In this document: one piece after another, positions 7,684-17,536 of the stretch
Layout of the letters: each line of letters starts with the position of its first letter
Position numbering within the stretch: position 1 is the first letter of the stretch
IMG/VR virus record: IMGVR_UViG_3300025727_000058
Coordinates: 1 to 23,064 of that record
Strand: one strand, 5' to 3'
From: a virus
DNA length: 23,064 nucleotides
Notes under the pieces: model-generated
Database searches by the model: none
What the model saw: only the letters and a program-made list of their open reading frames with translations
What the model was told of the DNA's origin: nothing
Made by a program: the position numbers and the translations under genes

Positions 7684-8160
7684 TCAAATAAACAGACCAA
7701 CTCTCTTCTCACCTCTCAACTCTCTTCTTACTTCCATAAGAATTTTACCAAGATGGTTTTTACCCTTTCCATTACAAACTCCCCAAAAAGTATCTTTATG
7801 AAAATTACCCTCGATTAGTTCATCGTCACCAGTTGATAATAATAATTCTCGAAGAGTTGAGTTGTTATTAAATTTTTCTCTAACACCCCAGTTCATAAAT
7901 TCAATCTTCTTAACTTCCCAATCTTTACGAACCTTTATTTTCTGTCCTAACTTTTTAGCAATAGCAGCACTTGGTATTGTCGCTATCATTTCTCTGAAAT
8001 CACCAGCGGTATAATATCTACCATTAATAAATTGTTCATCCGTCACTTTCATAGCAACATAATAATGTTCATTTGATGGATATGATATACCTTGGTGTTC
8101 TACCACACACGGATAGAAGTTTGATAGAAATCTCCAGCGACCTTCGAATTTATTAATCAT
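7684..8160 (-). CDS. NADAR (YbiA-like) domain protein, possible anti-DarT factor
   Basis: This 158-residue single-domain protein matches the NADAR family along its length: FLSNFYP (11-17), YPSNEHYY (27-34, with the conserved Glu31), VRKDWEVKKIEFM (77-89), KFNNNSTLRELLLSTGDDELIEG (97-118), DTFWG (123-127), KNHLGKILMEVR (134-145). NADAR proteins are N-glycosidases. Some reverse guanine ADP-ribosylation of DNA made by DarT toxins, and a T4-like phage NADAR has been described as an anti-DarT factor. Next to a DNA methylase, a counter-defence role is attractive but inferred. Riboflavin-type metabolism is the alternative. It starts just after the tmRNA terminator. Confidence 0.88.
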   Translation of the reverse strand: MINKFEGRWRFLSNFYPCVVEHQGISYPSNEHYYVAMKVTDEQFINGRYYTAGDFREMIATIPSAAIAKKLGQKIKVRKDWEVKKIEFMNWGVREKFNNNSTLRELLLSTGDDELIEGNFHKDTFWGVCNGKGKNHLGKILMEVRRELRGEKRVGLFI

Positions 8161-8224: not shown

Positions 8225-8257
8225 AAAAAACCTCACTCCCATGTAGGAAGTGAGGTT
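8225..8257 (-). terminator. Intrinsic terminator of the tmRNA gene
   Basis: Read leftward, AACCTCACT pairs with AGTGAGGTT (8249-8257 with 8229-8237). Two more G-C pairs extend the stem after a mismatch, and the hairpin is followed by TTTTTT (8225-8230). It begins 36 bases after the inferred tmRNA 3' end. Confidence 0.85.
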
Positions 8258-8292
8258 AAAAAATCCAATTGAAAGTATTCAATCGGCTCTTG

Positions 8293-8669
8293 TGGAGATG
8301 ACGATGTACTGCCCATCGTGTCTTCCTCAGTTAACAATAATTATTCATTTACAGGCTTAGAAAGTTTTTCTAAACTTTCAAACTAGATAATTTTTTTGAA
8401 AAGACTTCTAAAAATTATCAAATAACGGTCTTACCTTTTTAACTGTGTAAATCAGTTGTTAAATTTTCAAGAGTTTCCTCTATTAAGCTTCAACTAACTC
8501 CCCTACGTTAAGTAGGTTGTTTTGTAGAGCAAATACTAAATCTTCTTTGCTTGCTACTTCTGTTACGTTTCCGTTTACTGTTTTGTTATTTAATTTATTA
8601 ATCGGGTATTTAACAATCCGATACCTGCATAACTACCTTTACTCTGCGAATCTATTCTATGACACCCCC
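8293..8669 (-). ncRNA. ssrA: Transfer-messenger RNA (tmRNA)
   Basis: This is a 377-base RNA on the reverse strand. The ends form a tRNA-like acceptor: GGGGGUG (8669-8663) pairs with CAUCUCC (8300-8294), including a G3-U70 wobble, the alanyl-tRNA-synthetase determinant, and discriminator A (8293). CCA is not encoded. GAUUCGCAG and GGUAGUUAUGCAGGUAUCGG resemble the 5' region of Bacteroides tmRNA. An H-type pseudoknot follows: AUCGG/CCGAU (8618-8622 with 8601-8605) interlocked with UUGUUA/UAACAA (8611-8616 with 8583-8588). Ten bases later comes a likely resume codon GGA (8570-8572), and the frame runs 29 codons to TAA at 8483-8485. More hairpins follow. The T arm (ACGAU/AUCGU) is present, but its loop (GGGCAGUAC) is not canonical. 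It would tag and release stalled ribosomes using host SmpB. The rest of 8161-8739 holds only its promoter and terminator. Confidence 0.8.
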
Positions 8670-8678
8670 AAGTGTTTG

Positions 8679-8695
8679 TAATTAATGTATATATA
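8679..8695 (-). promoter_or_regulatory. Promoter of the tmRNA gene, shared with the capsid gene
   Basis: On the reverse strand this reads TATATATACATTAATTA, identical over 17 bases to 12846-12862 upstream of the major capsid gene. The box lies 19 bases before the mature tmRNA 5' end, leaving a short leader for RNase P to remove. Confidence 0.6.
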
Positions 8696-8739
8696 ATATA
8701 CTAAAATATTTAAAAGTTGTTAAAATGGATTGTTTATAG

Positions 8740-9234
8740 TTAAAATGGAACACGATCATCGTTCAAACCTTCATCATAAAAGAAGTTAAAGGTTAACATT
8801 GGTTTACCTTTTCTAGTTTCCCACATCTCAAACTCACAATCATATTGTGGTAATACATCCTTCTTCAATTTATTAGCCACATCTAAAACATTAATAACAT
8901 CTTTTAATCTTTCCTTTCTATTCATAACACAATATATCATAATATCTAAGTTCTTATGTTCTATTTCAACCTCAATACCATTGTTCTTAAACATTGTTCT
9001 TAACAAGTAAAGTAAATGTTGAACATCATCTCTATCATCATTATCATCCTCACTAGATCTAGACTCACCACCATTAAGATACTGGTAACCCTCATCATCA
9101 TAATCCGACCGATCAGACCATCTATCACTTGGATCACCCCAAGGATCGTTAATATCATCATTAAGATATGAGTTCTCATCCTCTCTTATATTTTCCTTTT
9201 CTAGGAACTTCTTATAATTCTTAATATTCTTCAT
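8740..9234 (-). CDS. Acidic protein with capsid-targeting-like N-terminus
   Basis: This 164-residue protein starts MKNIKNYKKFLEKENIRED, a basic-aromatic start with F-L-E at residues 10-12. Residues 13-75 are acidic, Asp/Ser/Gly-rich and probably disordered (DPWGDPSDRWSDRSDYDDEG). Residues 70-164 look folded, with strand-helix-strand character (DIMIYCVMN, RLKDVINVLDVANKL, MLTFNFFYDEG). The start lies one base after the peptidase gene ends, so the two are probably co-transcribed. No family is recognised. The same kind of N-terminus on other genes here suggests a packaged internal protein, which is inference. Confidence 0.75.
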   Translation of the reverse strand: MKNIKNYKKFLEKENIREDENSYLNDDINDPWGDPSDRWSDRSDYDDEGYQYLNGGESRSSEDDNDDRDDVQHLLYLLRTMFKNNGIEVEIEHKNLDIMIYCVMNRKERLKDVINVLDVANKLKKDVLPQYDCEFEMWETRKGKPMLTFNFFYDEGLNDDRVPF

Positions 9235-9235
9235 A

Positions 9236-10591
9236 TTATGTTAATTCTATTTTAAGATATGTTTCAGTAAAAATACACATACTATCTACTTTATGTTTAT
9301 CAAGTAAGTTTTGTACAATATTCAAAGTATCATAAACAGTTACTAGATTAGTATCATCTAAATCTATTCTTATATATATTTTATCCTCAAACCCAACCAT
9401 CTTCACCTCTAATTCAAATACTGCATTTTTTATAACATCAATTAAAGATTTGTGCTTCTGCACTAAATCAAGGTTCAAACCTACTTTTCTAGCAACTGGT
9501 AATCCAGCCCAATCAACATTAATAGAAGTTTTACACAACTGTATTAAAAATGTCATGTTTTGTTCTTCTCTACCTGTGTGTTCATTTAAATAACCAACAG
9601 ATAAATTAGTACACTCAGGAATAATATCCATAAATGAAGCAGAATCAGTATAAACGCCACCATTATCCAATGAAAGGTTAAGTCCTTGTTTATTGTACTC
9701 TTTACAAAGTCCTGTACCAAAAGCATCAGAACAACAACGACCACCCATTTGATGTGTTATAACAGAAATTGTTCTTCTTCTATCAAAAGAAATACATTTC
9801 TTAACATTTTTTAGGAAATCAAATTTATCATAAACATCAGCTAATTGATTAGAACCAATACCACCTCTTTCTTCACCAATAAAGAAATAATAAATACCTG
9901 GGATATTATGAACCATCATATACATCATAACAGTAACTCCAGACTTATCATCAGCCCCTAATATTGTACTACCATCAGTATAGATTATCTCATCCCCATC
10001 TACCTCTTTAGTGAATAGGTTAGTAGGAACTGGACTTCTATCAGCCGTATCAAGGTGAGAACTAAACATTGTAGTATCATCACCAGGAATCACTTTATAA
10101 TAATTACCAAATTCATCTTTATCTAAGTCTTTTGGTAAGTATTTCATAACTTTCTCCTCATGTGGGTGTGGGTATGTTTCTGTAACAAGTGATAAGAATG
10201 TAGACCTAGGGTCTTTTGGATTATAACTAAACTCAGGTATTTCAACTTTTTTACCAGATTGTTCAGCCTTACCACCATTCTTCACTCTATTGAAAGCATG
10301 AGCAAATTTTGTTATCTCATCACTACTAAATAGATTAGAAAAGTAATATCTAATGAATTTACCAATTTTCATTATATTTTTCTTACCACCAATAACAACA
10401 GTGAAATTAAAATCTGATGATTTATCTGTACCACAATCAACATTTGTTATATTAAGGCCATTATGATATTTTGCAGTTGGATCATTCATCCAAAGAAGTT
10501 CAAAAGCTAGATAACTATTATTATCCTCCATACTTTTAAGTATCTTTAGTAATTTATCCGAAAATTTTACTCTTTTAGTTTCTCCTGCCAT
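9236..10591 (-). CDS. M20/M28-like zinc metallopeptidase with extra N-terminal region
   Basis: The 451-residue protein carries the di-zinc peptidase ligand series: HLD (His179, Asp181), GADDKSG (Asp214), GEERGG (Glu240-Glu241), SFDRR (Asp270) and NEHTG (His338). YTDSASF lies at 314-320. These fit co-catalytic zinc exopeptidases of the M20/M28/M42 type. About 145 N-terminal residues precede the catalytic domain and match nothing I know. The C-terminus (DKIYIRIDLDDTNLVTVYDT) has a strand-helix pattern like that of the protein encoded next. A TATATA box (10615-10625) lies 24 bases before the ATG. Such enzymes are unusual in a phage head region. Peptide degradation is the family expectation; the substrate is unknown. 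Confidence 0.82.
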   Translation of the reverse strand: MAGETKRVKFSDKLLKILKSMEDNNSYLAFELLWMNDPTAKYHNGLNITNVDCGTDKSSDFNFTVVIGGKKNIMKIGKFIRYYFSNLFSSDEITKFAHAFNRVKNGGKAEQSGKKVEIPEFSYNPKDPRSTFLSLVTETYPHPHEEKVMKYLPKDLDKDEFGNYYKVIPGDDTTMFSSHLDTADRSPVPTNLFTKEVDGDEIIYTDGSTILGADDKSGVTVMMYMMVHNIPGIYYFFIGEERGGIGSNQLADVYDKFDFLKNVKKCISFDRRRTISVITHQMGGRCCSDAFGTGLCKEYNKQGLNLSLDNGGVYTDSASFMDIIPECTNLSVGYLNEHTGREEQNMTFLIQLCKTSINVDWAGLPVARKVGLNLDLVQKHKSLIDVIKNAVFELEVKMVGFEDKIYIRIDLDDTNLVTVYDTLNIVQNLLDKHKVDSMCIFTETYLKIELT

Positions 10592-10614
10592 TATAAAAAT
10601 TTATTTTATTAATC

Positions 10615-10625
10615 TTATATATTAA
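10615..10625 (-). promoter_or_regulatory. TATATA-type promoter for the peptidase gene
   Basis: On the reverse strand this reads TTAATATATAA, the core of the repeated 16-mer promoter. It is 24 bases before the ATG at 10591 and directly after the stop of the preceding gene. Confidence 0.55.
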
Positions 10626-10628
10626 ATA

Positions 10629-11018
10629 TCAAACTACGATTTCGTAGGCATTGATATAATCAACTCTTACTTGACCCTCATTCATACCACTTTCTTTCTT
10701 AACAAATTTTCTTTGGCAATAAACAACAGTTACATTATCTTCTTTACTAGCTTTACTATTCTTTTTAGCTAATTCAGCAACATATCTTAGTATTTCTTGA
10801 GTTGGTAAGTTTTCTCTAACTCTTATAATAACATGACTCCCAGGAACACCCTTAGCGTGCATCCAGATGTCTTTATCATCAGCAACGTTAAATGTTAAGT
10901 GGTCGTTAGATTTGGAGTCTCTACCTATATGAATAAAGAATCCTTCTACTTCAACTTTCTTAATATTAGGGAACTTAGTCTTCTTAGACTCAAAGAAATA
11001 ATTATACTTTTTAATCAT
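10629..11018 (-). CDS. Stand-alone NFACT-R domain protein with targeting-like N-terminus
   Basis: This 129-residue protein starts MIKKYNYFFESKKTKF, with F-F-E at residues 8-10 before Ser. Residues 23-129 form an NFACT-R (DUF814) domain: GRDSKSNDHLTF (32-43) and the hallmark DIWMHAKGVPGSHVIIR (50-66, with Asp50, His54, Pro59-Gly60-Ser61-His62). In RqcH, FbpA and NEMF this domain belongs to proteins that bind stalled 50S-peptidyl-tRNA complexes. Here the NFACT-N, helical and coiled-coil parts are absent, so it cannot be a full RqcH. The TATATA box ends only 3 bases before the ATG, which may mean a leaderless message. A role at ribosomes is inference from the family. Confidence 0.88.
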   Translation of the reverse strand: MIKKYNYFFESKKTKFPNIKKVEVEGFFIHIGRDSKSNDHLTFNVADDKDIWMHAKGVPGSHVIIRVRENLPTQEILRYVAELAKKNSKASKEDNVTVVYCQRKFVKKESGMNEGQVRVDYINAYEIVV

Positions 11019-11020
11019 AG

Positions 11021-11032
11021 TGTATATATAAA
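11021..11032 (-). promoter_or_regulatory. TATATA box directly before the NFACT-R start
   Basis: On the reverse strand this reads TTTATATATACA, identical over 12 bases to the box of the capsid gene (12853-12864). It ends 2 bases before the ATG, much closer than elsewhere in the window, so any transcript from it would start about at the A of ATG. Confidence 0.45.
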
Positions 11033-11044
11033 TTATTTAAAAAG

Positions 11045-11071
11045 AAAAAAGACCCACAAGGAGTCTTTTTT
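11045..11071 (-). terminator. Intrinsic terminator of the major capsid gene
   Basis: AAAAAAGAC (11063-11071 read leftward) pairs with GTCTTTTTT (11045-11053), with two inner C-G pairs. The T-run forms the 3' arm. It lies 22 bases after the capsid stop and before the promoter of the NFACT-R gene. Confidence 0.8.
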
Positions 11072-11092
11072 CGGTATTTTCAATTTAACTAT

Positions 11093-12823
11093 TTAGTTAA
11101 GAAGTGTATTCACATCTGTAACTTCGATAGTCATAAATTGTTTTTGTGGGAACCAACCAACTTCTGTTACAGCGTATCTAGATCTTAGTAACATTCTAGG
11201 AGCGAAAGTCGCTTCAGAAATTACAGATATAGACTGAGCCATTAAGTAAGGTACAAAAATAATACCTGGTTGATCTGGATTGTTCTTTCTACCAAGAGCA
11301 ATTCTATTGTCGTTATATCTCATATATGGATCAACATATATTGAAATATCTCCAATTGAACCTACTGGGTATAATTGACCTTGACCATTGATTTTTGATT
11401 TCACTGGGTTAATTGTATAACCAGAGATATCAGAAAGTGCTGCTGCTAATCCCCCATTTGTAATAAGGTATTGAGCTGGACCAACACGTCCCTCTGTAGC
11501 GATGTAGTTAGAAGCGTGAGCTATCTTAGTTACAAGCTTTCTTTGAACAGCGTGTGTAGTTTCACCACCAACGTTTCCATTACCAGCAGCAACAGTTGCA
11601 TAAGCTGTGTTTAAGTCAAAGATTGTTTGTCCCGCTAATGGTGCCGGTGCTGTTCCAACATAAGCTGGTGCAGATAATCTGTTAAGTGAACCCATTTCAA
11701 ATATCTTAGCAACAATTTGCTTAGAGATTGTTTGAGATAATTCATTAACAAGAATTGACTCCATTTTTTGAACGATATCCATACCAGTGTTAGCTTTGAT
11801 ATCTTCAATTTCAGTTCTTCTAAGAGCTGAAGATACTTCAATAGTACCTACGGCAACTGTTTTAGAACTAATTTTTGGTCCGATGATACCAGAGTATCTT
11901 TTATCGTCCATTTCTCTATCCATTGGATAGTTACCAGCAGGGCCAGTAGCATCCGACATCCAGTTTGCAGAGAAACCAGGAATGTGATCTTCAAGAGCTG
12001 ATACTAATTCAATAGTAGGCTCATCAGTTAAAGTAACATCTCCTAAATCAGTAATTTGAGAAGCCATTGACATTGTAGGACTAAATGTGTTTCTAGTCGG
12101 GTCAAATCCCCAGTTTGCTTGAGCTGAACCAACATCTGTGTGAGATGTATTCATCTGTCTGTAAGCTCTGAACATTGGATAACCATCAATTCTAGAGAAT
12201 CCTAAAAATTCAACTTTTCCTTCTTTTGAAGGTGTTGGTTCTACAACTACATCTGAACCATCTGTGATATCATTCCACATTCTACCAGTTAAACCACCAA
12301 CTGTTTCAGTGATTGTATTCGTAGCTAATTGAGCTCTTAATCCAGCGATAACTGCTGTCATACCACCAGCACCAGTAGTTAAAAATGTAGCGTTTGGTGC
12401 AATCTTAAAGACTTGTGGTCTTTCGTCTGAATCTCCTAAATGAGCATCATCATATCTAAAGTCGATATATAATAAATCAATTTTTGGACCTGGAGAAGGT
12501 TTAACAGCTACTAAATCTAAACCGATTGTTTGAGCTGCTATTTTCATCGCTACCGGTAAAAGGTTTTGACCAACATCACCTGAACCAGTTGAGTCAGCGT
12601 AATTGCCAATTGTGTTACCAGCTAATGAATTAGGTTGTGCAGCTACTACAGCTCCCATACCCGATACGTTTGAAGCGTTTGCGTAAGCGTTTTCATTGAT
12701 TGAGTGAAATTCAGCATATTCTGACATCCAATCCAATCTATCTTCACCAGCAACTCCCATGTTCTCTAATACTGGAGACCATTTCTTCATAGCTTTTTGT
12801 TTGTCTATTCTAATGTGTGACAT
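11093..12823 (-). CDS. Major capsid protein, T4 gp23-like
   Basis: The 576-residue protein follows the T4 gp23 plan. The N-terminus (KQKAMKKWSPVLENMG) resembles the gp23 start (KAELLNKWKPLLEGEG, from memory). A prohead-protease site I-N-E ends at Glu44 (HSINE|NAYANASN), giving a 44-residue propeptide against 65 in T4. Then come NYADSTGSGDVGQNLLPVAM and KIDLLYIDFRYDD, as in gp23. The C-terminal IYVDPYMRYNDNRI (495-508) and SEATFAPRMLL (536-545) are shared with the truncated paralog at 5885. It assembles the capsid shell as hexamers in the family. Its promoter is strong-looking and bipartite, and an intrinsic terminator follows, so high expression is likely. The adjacent gene upstream is the protease-scaffold, matching T4 order. 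Confidence 0.93.
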   Translation of the reverse strand: MSHIRIDKQKAMKKWSPVLENMGVAGEDRLDWMSEYAEFHSINENAYANASNVSGMGAVVAAQPNSLAGNTIGNYADSTGSGDVGQNLLPVAMKIAAQTIGLDLVAVKPSPGPKIDLLYIDFRYDDAHLGDSDERPQVFKIAPNATFLTTGAGGMTAVIAGLRAQLATNTITETVGGLTGRMWNDITDGSDVVVEPTPSKEGKVEFLGFSRIDGYPMFRAYRQMNTSHTDVGSAQANWGFDPTRNTFSPTMSMASQITDLGDVTLTDEPTIELVSALEDHIPGFSANWMSDATGPAGNYPMDREMDDKRYSGIIGPKISSKTVAVGTIEVSSALRRTEIEDIKANTGMDIVQKMESILVNELSQTISKQIVAKIFEMGSLNRLSAPAYVGTAPAPLAGQTIFDLNTAYATVAAGNGNVGGETTHAVQRKLVTKIAHASNYIATEGRVGPAQYLITNGGLAAALSDISGYTINPVKSKINGQGQLYPVGSIGDISIYVDPYMRYNDNRIALGRKNNPDQPGIIFVPYLMAQSISVISEATFAPRMLLRSRYAVTEVGWFPQKQFMTIEVTDVNTLLN

Positions 12824-12852
12824 AATTTTCTTTTTTTATTTTTTTTAATTAA

Positions 12853-12864
12853 TGTATATATAAA
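12853..12864 (-). promoter_or_regulatory. Promoter of the major capsid gene
   Basis: On the reverse strand this reads TTTATATATACA and ends 29 bases before the ATG. The 17-mer at 12846-12862 is also present before the tmRNA. The 19-base element at 12888-12906 lies upstream at the same spacing as in the protease-scaffold promoter. Confidence 0.65.
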
Positions 12865-12887
12865 CCCACAAATTCTTGATTTTTACC

Positions 12888-12906
12888 AAGGTGGATTCTT
12901 TACAGA
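12888..12906 (-). repeat. 19-base upstream element, copy 1
   Basis: On the reverse strand this reads TCTGTAAAGAATCCACCTT, identical to 15111-15129. In both copies 34 bases separate it from the end of the TATATAC box, and AGAATTT lies between. It sits right after the protease-scaffold stop. The fixed spacing suggests a promoter element rather than a chance repeat. Confidence 0.7.
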
Positions 12907-12908
12907 CA

Positions 12909-15050
12909 TTAAATATTTTTGAATCTTTCCATTATCGCTTGAACATCATTATCTGAAAGTTTATCTTCTTGGATAAGGCTTTCATGTGATACAAGTTTCT
13001 TTGTTACAGACTCATTTGTCTTTAGCTTTCTAGTTGACCAAAAATGTTCAACTTGTGCCTCAGTAGTTAAAACGTCTTCTGGATATAATCTAGCTTGTGA
13101 CAAGATAGATTTCTTAGAAGTGTCGTTTAATTGTTCCCAGATTGGCTTTGTGTTTTCAGGCATCAATCTGATTATTCTCTCTTCAAGAGATTCGTTCTTA
13201 GTTGATAGTGCTTCAGATATCAATAACAAAACATCTTTTTGAGTAAAGTAGTCTCTTTCGTTTATATGGACTTTAACTGACTCTTGTTCGTCATTTGACA
13301 AAGCGTAAAAGCTGTCAACTTGTGATTTAGACATGAACTTCAAGAAATTCACATCTGTTGTTTCAGAAACTTTTCGTTTTTTAGCTTCTTCAATTAGTTT
13401 ATCAATAGATTCAGATAATTCAGAATCACTATCACCGTTTACCATATCATGGCTTTCAGTTTTATCTTCTTTGTTTTCTTCATCTTTATTTTCTTCATCT
13501 TTGTTTTCTTCTGTTGCGTAATCATCTGTATTCTCAACAGATTCTTCAACACCATTTTCTTCATCATTATTATCTAATGATACTTCAAGATTACAATTTT
13601 CTTCATCTTTGTTTTCTTCATCATCAAAAGCTTCAAAACCAGCATCGTCTAGAGATGGGAAGCTTTCAGATCCTTCAACAGATTCAAATAATTTATCTCC
13701 GTTTAATCTCTCAACTATCAATCCTTGATAATTAATTGATTTGTCAAGATTCTCTGCTACATACTCAGAATAAGCGATGTTATCATCTAAATGTTCTGCG
13801 ATATACTCAGAGTAAGCAATGTTACCTTCAACATGCTCAGATAAGTATTCAGAATAAGCGATATTATTATCAACGTTTTCTGCGATATACTCAGAGTAAG
13901 CAATGTTTTTGTCTAAATTCTCAGCGATATACTCAGAATAAGCGATGTTTTTGTCTAAATTCTCAGCGATATATTCAGAATAAGCAATGTTCTTATCTAA
14001 ACTCTCAGCTAAATACTCAGAATATGAAATGTTTTTATCAACATTCTCAGCTAAATACTCAGCATAAGATATGTTCTTGTCTAAATTCTCAGCTAAATAC
14101 TCAGAATAATCAATGTTCTTATCTAAGTTTTCACCTAAATACTCAGCGTAATTAATAGATTTCTCTAAGTTTTCTGCTAAATAATCATTATGTTTAACTA
14201 ATTTCTCAGTTGTCTTCTTTAATGATTTATTCTCATTAACTACTATTTGTACCTTTTCTGATAAATAATCAAGATACTTAGCTACTTTTGAATTAGAGTT
14301 GTTTAACTCTTCATAATACTCTAATAATTGTTCCAATTTCTTTGGAGCTACATTACCTTTAGTAATGGCTGTATTAACTGTCTTCTTAGTTGATGCTAAT
14401 TCGTTAACTAAGTAGTTAGAGTAGTCAGTCAATTGTTTTTTTGTTACAAACTCATTTTTGTTCATATTGAATAACTCATTTATTTTTGACTCATCGGACA
14501 TTTCATATATCCTAAAGTTAGATTTTTCGTCATTATATCCCAATGACTCATTAAGTACCTTAACATCCATTTTAGCTGACGCAAATCCTGGGTCAGCAAC
14601 AATGTCATAAGTAAATAATTTTTTAAGGGAAACTGAACCATCAGATTCAGTAATACCAGCAGCTCTTGAAGAAACGAATACAGGACACCCGTCATCGACA
14701 AGTGCTTTTGCTTCCTTACCCCAGTAAGTACTTAGTAATTTAATCTCTCCCGCTACGATATTTTTCTCTTGGATATAACTTGCCTTTGTGATAATATGCG
14801 AGGCTCTTGAGAGTGATGTGTCAAAAACGTCTGGATGATCGAATTCACCATAAACAGCACCTAAGCCACTTATACGTTCATTCATTTCATTCAATGCTGG
14901 TAAAAATTTATCAGCCGAATAAATACGTTCATTTCTGTTCTTGACACCGAATTCGGTGAATGTACCACCTAATGTGTACCCCTTATTAGCAGAGTTACTC
15001 TCTCTAATAAGTTGGTTTTGTGAATTTTCTACTATTAAAACCGGTTTCAT
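12909..15050 (-). CDS. Prohead protease fused to a repeat-containing scaffold
   Basis: This 713-residue protein has an N-terminal protease domain (1-165) of the T4 gp21/herpes-assemblin type: GEFDHP (His72), VFVSSRAAG (Ser127/Ser128) and FTYDIVADPGF (Asp149, Asp153). T4 makes protease (gp21) and scaffold (gp22) from separate genes; here they are one frame. Residues 185-290 are helical. Residues 290-443 are eleven 14-residue repeats of the type YIAENLDKNIAYSE, each with a [LIV]xE protease site. Residues 470-545 are Glu/Asp/Asn-rich (KDEENKDEEN). A helical C-terminal domain (545-713) resembles a prohead core protein. It would form the core on which the capsid assembles, then degrade itself. An internal start making scaffold alone, as in lambda Nu3, is possible but not visible. 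Confidence 0.92.
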   Translation of the reverse strand: MKPVLIVENSQNQLIRESNSANKGYTLGGTFTEFGVKNRNERIYSADKFLPALNEMNERISGLGAVYGEFDHPDVFDTSLSRASHIITKASYIQEKNIVAGEIKLLSTYWGKEAKALVDDGCPVFVSSRAAGITESDGSVSLKKLFTYDIVADPGFASAKMDVKVLNESLGYNDEKSNFRIYEMSDESKINELFNMNKNEFVTKKQLTDYSNYLVNELASTKKTVNTAITKGNVAPKKLEQLLEYYEELNNSNSKVAKYLDYLSEKVQIVVNENKSLKKTTEKLVKHNDYLAENLEKSINYAEYLGENLDKNIDYSEYLAENLDKNISYAEYLAENVDKNISYSEYLAESLDKNIAYSEYIAENLDKNIAYSEYIAENLDKNIAYSEYIAENVDNNIAYSEYLSEHVEGNIAYSEYIAEHLDDNIAYSEYVAENLDKSINYQGLIVERLNGDKLFESVEGSESFPSLDDAGFEAFDDEENKDEENCNLEVSLDNNDEENGVEESVENTDDYATEENKDEENKDEENKEDKTESHDMVNGDSDSELSESIDKLIEEAKKRKVSETTDVNFLKFMSKSQVDSFYALSNDEQESVKVHINERDYFTQKDVLLLISEALSTKNESLEERIIRLMPENTKPIWEQLNDTSKKSILSQARLYPEDVLTTEAQVEHFWSTRKLKTNESVTKKLVSHESLIQEDKLSDNDVQAIMERFKNI
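13722..14183 (-). repeat. Eleven 42-base tandem repeats in the scaffold region
   Basis: Each unit encodes 14 residues with consensus Y-[LI]-A-E-N-L-D-K-N-I-A-Y-S-E. In order the P3-P1 residues are LAE, LGE, LAE, LAE, LAE, IAE, IAE, IAE, LSE, IAE, VAE. Units 6 and 7 are identical at protein level; the outer ones diverge, and a twelfth degenerate copy (LIVERLNG) follows. Bases vary at third positions while protein is kept, so selection is on the peptide. Confidence 0.92.
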
Positions 15051-15076
15051 GTAAAATAATTATTTTTTGCTTCTTA

Positions 15077-15088
15077 GTATATATTGAC
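15077..15088 (-). promoter_or_regulatory. Promoter of the protease-scaffold gene
   Basis: On the reverse strand this reads GTCAATATATAC and ends 26 bases before the ATG at 15050. The 19-base element at 15111-15129 precedes it at the same distance as in the capsid promoter. Confidence 0.6.
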
Positions 15089-15110
15089 AATGTAAATTCT
15101 AAAAATAACA

Positions 15111-15129
15111 AAGGTGGATTCTTTACAGA
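15111..15129 (-). repeat. 19-base upstream element, copy 2
   Basis: On the reverse strand this reads TCTGTAAAGAATCCACCTT, identical to 12888-12906. It lies upstream of the protease-scaffold promoter. The bases from here to the next rightward gene (15130-15219) show nothing else I can identify. Confidence 0.7.
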
Positions 15130-15219
15130 GGCTCTATAATCTTTTATTAAAGAAGGTTTGGTGAGTACGGGAAGAGGACAACACATATTTAATAAATAAT
15201 TAAAATTTTGAGGTTTTTT

Positions 15220-15621
15220 ATGATAATAACTAGAGAGATAAAAGTTAAAATAAGCGAAGCAAACTATTCATACTATGAAAATCTAGGATATAGTGATGTT
15301 ACAATTGGTGAATTATTAATAATACCAGTTGAATTACTATCCAAAGGATCCCACTATAAAATAAAGTGTAAGTGTGATAAATGTGGAATCGAAAAGGATG
15401 TAATATTCAAGAACTATATTAAATATGATAATAACTGGGGTGAATACTCTTGTAGAAAATGCTCAGAATCAAAAAGGAAAAAATCATTAAGAGAAAATTA
15501 CGGTGTTGACTATCCAATACAAAACAATAAAATATTGAAAAAAATGAAAAAAACACTTATAGATAAGTACGGTGTTGACAACATATCCAAACGCGATAAT
15601 AAACAAAACGATATTTCCTAA
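15220..15621 (+). CDS. Zinc-finger fragment like the N-terminus of phage homing endonucleases
   Basis: The 133-residue reading starts MIITREIKVKISEANY at the ATG at 15220; a TTG at 15208 would add four residues. It has a Cys cluster (Cys50, 52, 55 and Cys78, 81: CKCDKCG...CRKC) and then two units of a YGVD-type repeat (ENYGVDYPIQNNKILKKMKK, DKYGVDNISK). This arrangement occurs as the DNA-recognition part of several phage and giant-virus endonucleases. No GIY-YIG, HNH or VSR-like catalytic part follows, and the frame stops 11 bases before the RNase R start. It may be a decayed or truncated homing endonuclease, or a small DNA-binding protein. It forms the left edge of the rightward cassette that splits the head genes. 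Confidence 0.6.
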   Translation: MIITREIKVKISEANYSYYENLGYSDVTIGELLIIPVELLSKGSHYKIKCKCDKCGIEKDVIFKNYIKYDNNWGEYSCRKCSESKRKKSLRENYGVDYPIQNNKILKKMKKTLIDKYGVDNISKRDNKQNDIS

Positions 15622-15631
15622 TAAAAGGAAT

Positions 15632-17536
15632 ATGAATAATAATATAAAAGAAGGAGAACGTTACGAAGGTCAAATAGAGTTCTCAACAAACAGACACGCA
15701 ACAATCACAATAAACGATAAATCAATTTTCATTTATAAGAAGAATACTAAAAATGCTTTACACTTAGATAAAGTAATTGTAGAAGTATTTAGGGGTGATA
15801 GGAAATTAGAAGCTAAAGTAATTAACACAATATCAAGGAATAAGAAAGAATTCGTTGGTAAGGTACATATTAATGGTAAATCAACATTTGTTATAGCAGA
15901 TAATAAAAGAATACCAGTTGATTTCTATATCAAGGGTGGATTAAAATCGGAAGATAACCAAAAGGTTATAGTCGAACTCACAAAGTGGGTAGATAGTAAA
16001 TCCCCACAAGCTAAGATAACTAAGATATTAGGAGATGTTGGTGATAATAACGCTGAGATGAATTCGATAATGTATGAATATGGATTACCAGTTGATTTTC
16101 CACAAGATGTTATAAACGAATCAGAACTCACACCAGAAGTAATAACCGAAAAGGAAATAAAATCTCGTAGAGATATGAGAGATACAACAACAATAACAAT
16201 CGACCCAGTAGATGCTCGTGATTTTGATGACGCATTATCACTTAAAGTAATGAATGATAATAGATTTGAAGTAGGAGTACATATTGCTGATGTTGGACAC
16301 TATGTTAAACCTGGTACTAAATTAGATGATGAAGCTTATGAAAGAGCAACATCTGTGTATCTAGTTGATAGATGTGTATCTATGTTACCAGAAAGACTTA
16401 GTAATGGAATATGTTCATTAAAACCTAATGAAGATAGGTTAGCATTTTCAGTTGTATTTACACTAGACTCGGATGGTAAAATTGTTAAAGAATGGCACGG
16501 TAAAACAGTCATACATTCTGATATGAGATTTGCTTATGAGGATGCTCAAGAGATAATCGAGGGTAATGATGAAAAATACACAGGTGATGGTAGTGTTTAT
16601 CCATTGATGATTAATCATCTAAACACATTAGCTAAGAAAATAAGAAAGAAAAGAATTAAAGACGGTTCATTAGAGATGGGTGGTGTGGAAGTTCGATTCG
16701 AATTAGCAGAGGATAATAAGAAACCAATTGGTGTTTATTTCAAAGAACAGAAAGAAGCTAATAAATTAATTGAAGAATTTATGTTACTAGCTAATAAATC
16801 TGTTGCTAAACTATTATCAAGTAATTCGAGAACTAATGTATTTAGAGTACATGATACTCCTAATATGGAGAAGTTAACAGCATTATCAAATGTGTGTAAG
16901 ACTTTTGGTCACGAATTCAAAATAGAAGGCGAATCTGAAGATCTTAAAAAATCTATAAACAAGTTATTACAAGATGTTAAAGGAACACCAGAAGAAAATA
17001 TGTTAAGTACGGTTGTAACTAGATGTATGTCTAAAGCAACATACACAATACAAAACATAGGACATTATGGATTAGGATTCACACACTATTCACACTTCAC
17101 AAGTCCAATACGTAGGTATCCGGATTTAATGACACATAGAATGTTACTTGATTTCTTACATAATAAGAAACAAGGAAACCCTACTAAAGTTGAAGATGAG
17201 GCTAAATGGTGTTCAAGTAGAGAATTGATAGCATCCAGAGCCCAAAGAGATTCTATAAAATACAAACAAGCCGAATATCTTTTAGATAAAATTGGGAAAG
17301 TATTCACTGGGATAGTTTCTGGTGTAACTGATTGGGGATTATATGTTGAATTAACAGAAAGTAAATGTGAGGGTATGATAAGATACCAATCTTTAGAAGG
17401 TAATTATAATATAGACACACAAAACTATCAAATCTTTAATGATGTTGGGGATAGAATCAGATTAGGTGATGAGATAACTATCATAGTTAATGGTGTTGAT
17501 TTAGAAAAGAAACAAATAGATTTCATAAAAATGTAA
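15632..17536 (+). CDS. RNase R/RNase II family 3'-5' exoribonuclease
   Basis: This 634-residue protein is read from the ATG at 15632, preceded by AAAGGAAT. A 20-residue extension from 15572 overlaps the previous gene and looks non-coding. Cold-shock-like N-terminal domains (GERYEGQIEFSTNRHATITI) lead to the RNB domain. It has the catalytic TIDPVDARDFDDALSL (Asp191, 197, 199, 200), HIADVGHYVKPGTKLDDEA, RLSNGICSLKPNEDRLAFS and HYSHFTSPIRRYPDLMTHR. A C-terminal S1 domain (GKVFTGIVSGVTDWGLYVEL) completes it. All active-site aspartates are present. It is shorter than bacterial RNase R (over 700), lacking the extra N-terminal HTH and the basic tail. It degrades RNA from the 3' end. RNase R works with tmRNA on non-stop messages in E. 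coli; such a role here is inferred. Confidence 0.93.
   Translation: MNNNIKEGERYEGQIEFSTNRHATITINDKSIFIYKKNTKNALHLDKVIVEVFRGDRKLEAKVINTISRNKKEFVGKVHINGKSTFVIADNKRIPVDFYIKGGLKSEDNQKVIVELTKWVDSKSPQAKITKILGDVGDNNAEMNSIMYEYGLPVDFPQDVINESELTPEVITEKEIKSRRDMRDTTTITIDPVDARDFDDALSLKVMNDNRFEVGVHIADVGHYVKPGTKLDDEAYERATSVYLVDRCVSMLPERLSNGICSLKPNEDRLAFSVVFTLDSDGKIVKEWHGKTVIHSDMRFAYEDAQEIIEGNDEKYTGDGSVYPLMINHLNTLAKKIRKKRIKDGSLEMGGVEVRFELAEDNKKPIGVYFKEQKEANKLIEEFMLLANKSVAKLLSSNSRTNVFRVHDTPNMEKLTALSNVCKTFGHEFKIEGESEDLKKSINKLLQDVKGTPEENMLSTVVTRCMSKATYTIQNIGHYGLGFTHYSHFTSPIRRYPDLMTHRMLLDFLHNKKQGNPTKVEDEAKWCSSRELIASRAQRDSIKYKQAEYLLDKIGKVFTGIVSGVTDWGLYVELTESKCEGMIRYQSLEGNYNIDTQNYQIFNDVGDRIRLGDEITIIVNGVDLEKKQIDFIKM

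Follow-up and report, generated by a model that had tools for sequence, protein, structure and literature searches.

A probable virus-encoded tmRNA with a rebuilt elbow and a long tag in the head-gene region of huge phages

A virus record of 23,064 bases (IMG/VR record IMGVR_UViG_3300025727_000058; hereafter the window, meaning the whole stretch analysed) very probably encodes a working transfer-messenger RNA (tmRNA), which frees bacterial ribosomes that have stalled, and this RNA would form, together with the protein SmpB, a trans-translation system of the phage. An earlier note on this DNA had placed a tmRNA in a phage head region, within about 9 kb of an RNase R gene and a gene for a stand-alone NFACT-R protein, and had read the three as one rescue set. 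The tmRNA coordinates proved exact, with the gene, for which no strand had been given, on the minus strand (Table 1), and the head region was recognised from capsid, portal and head maturation protease matches. The window closely resembles the phage genome LR745206.1 (634,780 bases); LR756502.1 (642,428 bases) is a further relative. Genomes above 634 kb are assigned to the Mahaphage clade, with Bacteroidetes as predicted hosts (Al-Shayeb et al., 2020; PMC7162821).

Relatives were gathered through the capsid gene (blastn and profile searches of loci) and grouped into 33 clusters at 95% identity, with L001-L005 excluded from the cluster counts as duplicates. A tmRNA is present in 29 of the 33 capsid-gene clusters, that is, wherever the locus extends far enough; the four clusters without it, whose contigs end 215-3370 bases beyond the capsid gene, are left out of the 29-cluster count. 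The alignment comprises 27 distinct tmRNA copies, and a larger set holds 65 unique full-length RNAs, from which 20 partial RNAs were excluded. The core pattern of the class was matched by 101 IMG/VR stretches.

Covariation within this alignment reveals the fold. RNAalifold returned 60 pairs, 35 of them with two-sided compensation. A 62-pair structure defined by us, which includes the pseudoknots PK1 and PK2, is paired in 95.3% of cells and has two-sided changes at 38 pairs, although these pair counts, like the table of nucleotides 18 and 55 given below, do not represent independent events, as the aligned sequences share kinship. None of 500 shuffles reached any of five measures for the 62-pair structure, and sliding the partner strand by 1-3 columns lowered pairing to 35-48%. 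A chance hairpin was rejected on account of the covariation in the aligned relatives. An acceptor stem of 7 bp that includes G3-U70 and is followed by A73 occurs in all 27 aligned relatives and in 62 of the 62 parsable acceptors among the 65 RNAs; G3-U70 and A73 are the alanine identity elements, and ssrA sequences conserve the wobble pair (PMC3968760). The tRNA-like domain consists of a reduced D-loop without a stem, a T-arm and a long helix P2, with compensatory changes in helices 2, 3 and 9, the last of these (the T-arm) being paired in 99.4% of cells with two-sided changes in four of six pairs. Both P2 and PK1 occupy the positions expected for a tmRNA. In PK1, six of the nine pairs of helices 4 and 5 show two-sided changes, and 100% and 97.2% of cells are paired; in PK2, helix 7 changes on both sides at four of four pairs (99.1% paired), and the first helix, helix 6, is weaker (72.4%). 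A possible third pseudoknot around 8387-8432 is a by-eye candidate whose columns do not align.

Homology of the window RNA to accepted tmRNAs is indirect and runs through six records in which two models match at the same place. A covariance model built on the 5' 148 nt of the tmRNA (R1) matches 11 of 12 huge-phage records, and RF00023, the Rfam model of the standard one-piece tmRNA, which was made independently of this class, matches the same place in six of the R1-positive records, and in five of these the two matches have the identical 5' base. At these places, RF00023 scores exceed the cut-off of 47 bits in LR756500 (95.5), LR756504 (65.2) and a 596,785-base contig, L145 (57.3), and stay below it in three more records, at 46.8 in a contig of 276 kb, 32.8 in one of 249 kb and 21.1 in LR756501 (735 kb). 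LR745206, LR756502 and three further records have no listed RF00023 match at the equivalent position. ARAGORN, which recognises one of the 65 unique full-length members of the class, calls a tmRNA in L145, with a tag that ends in the same frame. The LR756501.1 candidate (L253, near 718388-718748) is weak: it scores 30.5 bits with R1, has an unparsed acceptor stem and is not called by ARAGORN. A clear tmRNA is found in the 462-kb phage LR756500.1 (L215, 94509-94921), and Prevotella phage Lak-B5 (L217, MK250024.1, 409798-410207) has a tmRNA that passes the Rfam cut-off at 48 bits and is uncalled by ARAGORN. In a search for a cellular origin, the model gave a single weak match (E 8e-4, 29.1 bits) among 296 genomes of the phylum to which a Bacteroidales genome belongs. 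Weak Rfam matches to PyrR, L10-leader, U4 and similar families were rejected, as they score under the gathering thresholds and sit on terminator stems or AT-rich sequence.

The most distinctive part of the RNA is its elbow. Eight bacterial tmRNAs used as controls all have UUCRANY T-loops, 5-bp T-stems and tags of 9-10 residues, and all were found by ARAGORN. Among the 65 unique RNAs, the T-loop is mostly GGCRGUR (GGCAGUA or near variants) on a 6-bp stem; one RNA, that of L145, has a canonical loop (UUCGAUU), and the window's own is non-canonical. Nucleotides 18 and 55 combine as A-G in 56 RNAs, G-U in five, A-U in two and U-G in one, with one unparsed (L104, elsewhere read as A with GGCAGUA). 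Three members deep within the class (L047, L052 and L144) have reverted to G18 with U55, probably in one event, and the rule is broken by L146 and L158 (A18-U55) and by L106 (U18-G55). Because nucleotides 18 and 55 change as a pair, the contact that shapes the elbow in the tRNA-like fold is preserved, and the interaction of D-loop and T-loop is required for SmpB binding (PMC3968760). The UUCRANY loop is usual but not universal, as alphaproteobacterial and mitochondrial tmRNAs deviate from it: the mitochondrial tmRNA of Reclinomonas has two guanines there, that of Caulobacter one (PMC1168896). The consensus T-loop of the two-piece family RF01849, GGGCgGUAC, likewise has G at 55 or at 54-55. Unlike these two-piece tmRNAs, the phage gene is in one piece and unpermuted, and it matches RF01849 only in part (16.3 bits; gathering score 50). 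The guanine T-loop is thus a parallel to two-piece tmRNAs within a one-piece tmRNA, and precedent for it exists.

Downstream of PK1, a tag frame of 27-30 codons followed by a stop is open in all 27 aligned and all 65 unique RNAs, and in each of the 27 both other frames run into a stop before 20 codons have passed. The resume codon of the window RNA was presumptively placed by analogy with the UAGUC box of E. coli. The ratio of nonsynonymous to synonymous polymorphism (pN/pS) is 0.53 in the tag frame as against 0.74 and 1.13 in the others, a test that RNA-level constraint weakens. The final residue is V in 37 of the 65 tags and A in 28. At 27-30 residues, the tag is about three times as long as is usual, the most frequent value among 97,179 curated tmRNAs being 10 (PMC11915505). 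For other huge phages, ARAGORN reads a 10-residue tag ending RMAA in LR756500, and DDEIEFRMAA was read by eye in Lak-B5; the tag of LR756504 has about 24 residues and ends AVAA, and the weak candidate in LR756501 has a possible tag of about 33 residues ending LVLA.

SmpB, unseen in the earlier note, is the best supported partner of this RNA. Its gene falls outside the window; LR745206 has it at 332958-333383 and LR756502 at 367597-368013, and the two genomes share neighbours of the gene, a thioredoxin-like one among them. In both of these 635- and 642-kb relatives, the C-terminal tail of the protein is intact. Gene content is nested across nine records above 400 kb: tmRNA occurs in nine, SmpB in eight, RNase R in six and NFACT-R in four. 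The phage SmpB proteins share 37-47% identity with those of 28 loci from many phyla, among which no close cellular source was found. SmpB of GGC-type phages carries R-D/E-K-K-L-L-L as opposed to R-x-R-K-L-L in other phages, a comparison of five with four sequences that offers a lead only.

Several observations weigh against a working tmRNA. In the window, ARAGORN found no tmRNA gene and Rfam gave no match at the gathering threshold; RF00023 aligned over its full length (1-374) to 8290-8669 of the minus strand scores 8.8 bits where the gathering threshold is 47 (E 0.28), which taken alone is no evidence, and it is the comparative evidence that decides. CCA is encoded in just four of 62 parsed relatives. 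Positions 54, 55 and 58 of the T-loop are off-rule, and because of the departure at 54 and 55, modification of U54 and U55 is impossible. No tag among the 65 unique RNAs ends in -AA, so that host proteases cannot be relied on to degrade what is tagged. SmpB had no match in LR756500 despite the good tmRNA there, which would therefore need host SmpB, and it was found in three of 12 related records: the 635- and 642-kb genomes and one of ten shorter IMG/VR records. The nine without it are fragments 77-242 kb long. With respect to the tag, E. coli ssrA variants ending LVA, AAV or ASV are still degraded, some of them slowly, and loss of -AA therefore need not mean loss of proteolysis. Rejection of the tmRNA by Infernal, named in the earlier note as a result that would refute it, does occur at default thresholds; the identification survives this rejection because of the covariation and the Rfam-accepted homologues.

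The RNA is read as a tmRNA because of the acceptor G3-U70 and A73, the placement of P2 and PK1, the open tag frame, the same-place matches of R1 and RF00023 and the ARAGORN call in L145. A structured RNA of some other kind, toward which the non-canonical T-loop and the rejections by ARAGORN and the Rfam thresholds would point, is extremely unlikely in view of the alanine identity elements, PK1, the tag frame and the same-place homologues accepted by Rfam or ARAGORN. Somewhat less remote, though still very unlikely, is a decoy that titrates host SmpB, EF-Tu or alanyl-tRNA synthetase and thereby blocks host trans-translation. The tmRNA of mycobacteriophage DS6A, which comprises the tRNA-like domain only, sets a precedent, and a molecule similar to it inhibits tmRNA, perhaps by SmpB titration (PMC4131195, PMC11915505). 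However, a decoy would not need a tag, yet PK1, the resume region, the tag frame and its stop are all conserved, and the phages encode their own SmpB.

As a working tmRNA, the RNA would be charged by host alanyl-tRNA synthetase and, with SmpB and EF-Tu, would enter ribosomes that have stalled on broken messages; such messages should abound while host mRNA is destroyed. It would then add alanine and a tag of 27-30 residues, after which the ribosome would terminate; ribosomes would stay usable for the phage, and incomplete proteins would be marked. With its GGCRGUR T-loop and A18 in the D-loop, the altered elbow is probably an adaptation of the RNA to the SmpB that the phage itself encodes. A more tentative proposal, on balance doubtful, is that phage trans-translation is kept separate from that of the host: the elbow would be rebuilt for the phage SmpB and would escape modification of the T-loop by the host, perhaps also an attack of the host on tmRNA, and the long, conserved tag without -AA would give rescued peptides a fate different from, or slower than, breakdown by host ClpXP.

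The flanks of the gene were also considered. Three terminator-like sites were counted in the stretch as against 0.2 expected, and one of them follows the tmRNA directly. A TAnnTTTG box, a known Bacteroidetes promoter motif, lies 18-60 bases upstream in 43 of 65 relatives, whereas shuffles that preserve single-base composition only gave a mean of 3.2 and a maximum of 8; the upstream region of the window's own tmRNA is without this box. In the window, near-identical promoter-like copies of TATATATACATTAATTA stand upstream of the tmRNA (8698) and of the capsid gene (12865) on the minus strand. A late promoter shared by the two genes was rejected, as a scan of three relatives did not find TATATATACATTAATTA upstream of gp23 and its 8 matches compare with a shuffle average of 4.9.

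Both protein genes of the proposed rescue set are genuine, the NFACT-R protein by its PF05670 match and RqcH similarity and RNase R by PF00773 and TIGR02063. The closest solved relative of the phage NFACT-R domain is residues 456-550 of B. subtilis RqcH (E 8e-15), CCDC25 is also related (E 1e-7), and an alignment of 20 members has 14 invariant columns. In contrast to RqcH, the phage protein consists of NFACT-R only and lacks NFACT-N, the helix-hairpin-helix (HhH) region and the coiled coil. NFACT-N (PF05833) was found in none of 12 related records, including the 635- and 642-kb genomes; accordingly, no RqcH was found in them, and a lone NFACT-R domain is not a ribosome-associated quality control pathway. 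RqcH is also seldom present in Bacteroidota-type hosts, with 404 cases among 1,956 genomes of the Fibrobacteres-Chlorobi-Bacteroidetes (FCB) group (PMC11633108). The phage RNase R has OB/CSD, RNB and S1 domains and scores above the TIGR02063 cut-off, but unlike RNase R of E. coli it has neither the N-terminal helix-turn-helix region nor the lysine-rich C-terminal tail. The absence of the latter follows from the match to PRK11642 (E. coli type), which covers positions 107-723 of 813 and ends at the C-terminus of the protein. It is through this lysine-rich region that tmRNA-SmpB recruits RNase R (PMC3968760). The claim that the phage holds parts of both rescue routes is thus weak, for want of NFACT-N and of the RNase R tail.

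That tmRNA, RNase R and NFACT-R act as one set controlling stalled translation is unlikely, even though all three genes are real and lie inside 9 kb, their order is maintained in many relatives, and both protein genes are nearby in 18 of the 29 tmRNA-bearing clusters. NFACT-R alone accompanies the tmRNA in six clusters and RNase R alone in five, and no cluster lacks both. The association check suggested earlier for related phages therefore came out negative: NFACT-R (absent from 5 of 29 loci) and RNase R (absent from 6 of 29) show no positive association and are gained or lost independently, where absence from the locus does not mean absence from the genome, as in LR756502, which has NFACT-R at 230 kb and RNase R at 71 kb, some 158 kb away. 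Neighbours without a known link to rescue are about as constant, namely NADAR (25 of 33 clusters), the peptidase (31 of 33) and an adenine methylase (23 of 33). Beyond the loci, RNase R was found in 13 of 19 records and NFACT-R in 10 of 12, plus two of nine in a second set. The tmRNA of the proposed set is conserved and looks functional, whereas joint action of the three is only partly borne out. Because the tmRNA has its own terminator, the protein genes are lost independently and RNase R is without its tail, the system is taken to be the tmRNA-SmpB pair, and the three-gene set is kept as a possibility only. Phages that carry RNase R and NFACT-R may draw on them as helpers of trans-translation.

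The surroundings of these genes are listed in Table 1. The gene that comes next after the tmRNA terminator encodes a NADAR protein; NADAR enzymes have a link with ADP-ribosylation and with defence against phages. The translation of the head maturation protease contains a visible run of repeats of about 15 residues, of the type YSEYIAENLDKNIA. The very compact gltX-like protein matches gltX from its start to about position 88 and over positions 173-319 of 470; it is without an internal stretch and the anticodon-binding part, and among the 33 capsid clusters its gene occurs in the window's own only.

Table 1. Features of the window and the evidence for them
Feature	Position	Strand	Evidence or remark
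NADAR protein	7684-8160		PF08719; immediately follows the tmRNA terminator
Intrinsic terminator after tmRNA	8229-8257	minus	12-bp stem, then T-run; second stem 8265-8286
tmRNA positions 74-76	8290-8292	minus	CAA, not CCA
tmRNA gene, acceptor stem to discriminator A73	8293-8669	minus	RNA 5' end at 8669; full-length nhmmer profile, covariation, homologues
T-arm, 6-bp stem	8301-8319	minus	loop GGCAGUA (8307-8313), not UUCRANY
Hairpin ahead of P2 3' strand	8362-8377	minus	helix 8; 4 of 6 pairs with two-sided changes, 96.3% paired
Pseudoknot PK2	8431-8457	minus	helices 6 and 7
Tag frame, 29 residues	8483-8572	minus	GNVTEVASKEDLVFALQNNLLNVGELVEA, then stop; presumed resume codon GGA (8570-8572), preceded by UAAAC
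Pseudoknot PK1, just upstream of tag	8585-8622	minus	helices 4 and 5
Long helix P2, 5' strand	8623-8650	minus	3' strand 8323-8356; helices 2 and 3, 25 pairs, 14 with two-sided changes
D-loop A18-G19	8657-8658	minus	GG in ordinary tmRNA; co-varies with T-loop nucleotide 55
Acceptor stem, 5' strand GGGGGUG	8663-8669	minus	pairs with 8294-8300 (CAUCUCC), giving G3-U70; A73 at 8293
Upstream region	8670-8700	minus	site of the TAnnTTTG box in relatives
Peptidase-like protein	9236-10591		phrog_4191; matches peptidase T weakly; gene lies between those of NFACT-R and the tmRNA
Stand-alone NFACT-R protein, 129 residues	10629-11018	minus	PF05670, E 8.2e-16, 59 bits against cut-off 29.8
gp23 capsid protein	head region		PF07068
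Portal	head region		PF07230
Head maturation protease, 713 residues	12909-15050		phrog_207
RNase R, 634 residues	15632-17536	plus	PF00773, E 9.7e-111; TIGR02063, 642.2 bits against cut-off 597.85
TnsA-like or head-closure protein	20929-21450		matches both PF08722 (TnsA-like endonuclease N-terminus) and phrog_218 (phage head closure)
Glutamyl-tRNA synthetase-like protein, 282 residues	21506-22354		gltX match; very compact

Phage-borne tmRNAs are already known from mycobacteriophages such as Bxz1 and Wildcat and from Bacillus phage G (PMC4131195), and likewise, together with SmpB, from huge phages, in which they were assigned with ARAGORN, a tool that misses the present class (Al-Shayeb et al., 2020; PMC7162821). 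The phage RNA shares with the standard one-piece tmRNA (RF00023) the order of its parts, from the acceptor with G3-U70 and A73 through the reduced D-loop, long P2, PK1, the tag frame with its stop and a further pseudoknot to the T-arm, and differs from it in the GGCRGUR loop, the 6-bp T-stem, A18 and a 27-30-residue tag without -AA. What is new is a class with a rebuilt elbow and a long tag that escapes standard tools; no description of it was found in the literature covered on phage and huge-phage tmRNAs, a survey with supplements and most subscription papers outside its scope.

The largest known phages thus hold a tmRNA family that standard tools overlook. This family amounts to a natural experiment on the essential parts of tmRNA, in which the contact between D-loop and T-loop survives by a swap, A18-G55 for G18-U55, and in which the T-loop sequence, T-loop modification and a short tag ending in -AA are not retained. 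It also opens a testable question, namely why these phages have a tmRNA and SmpB of their own although nearly all likely hosts have both, as smpB is present in 1,913 and ssrA in 1,910 of the 1,956 FCB-group genomes (PMC11633108).

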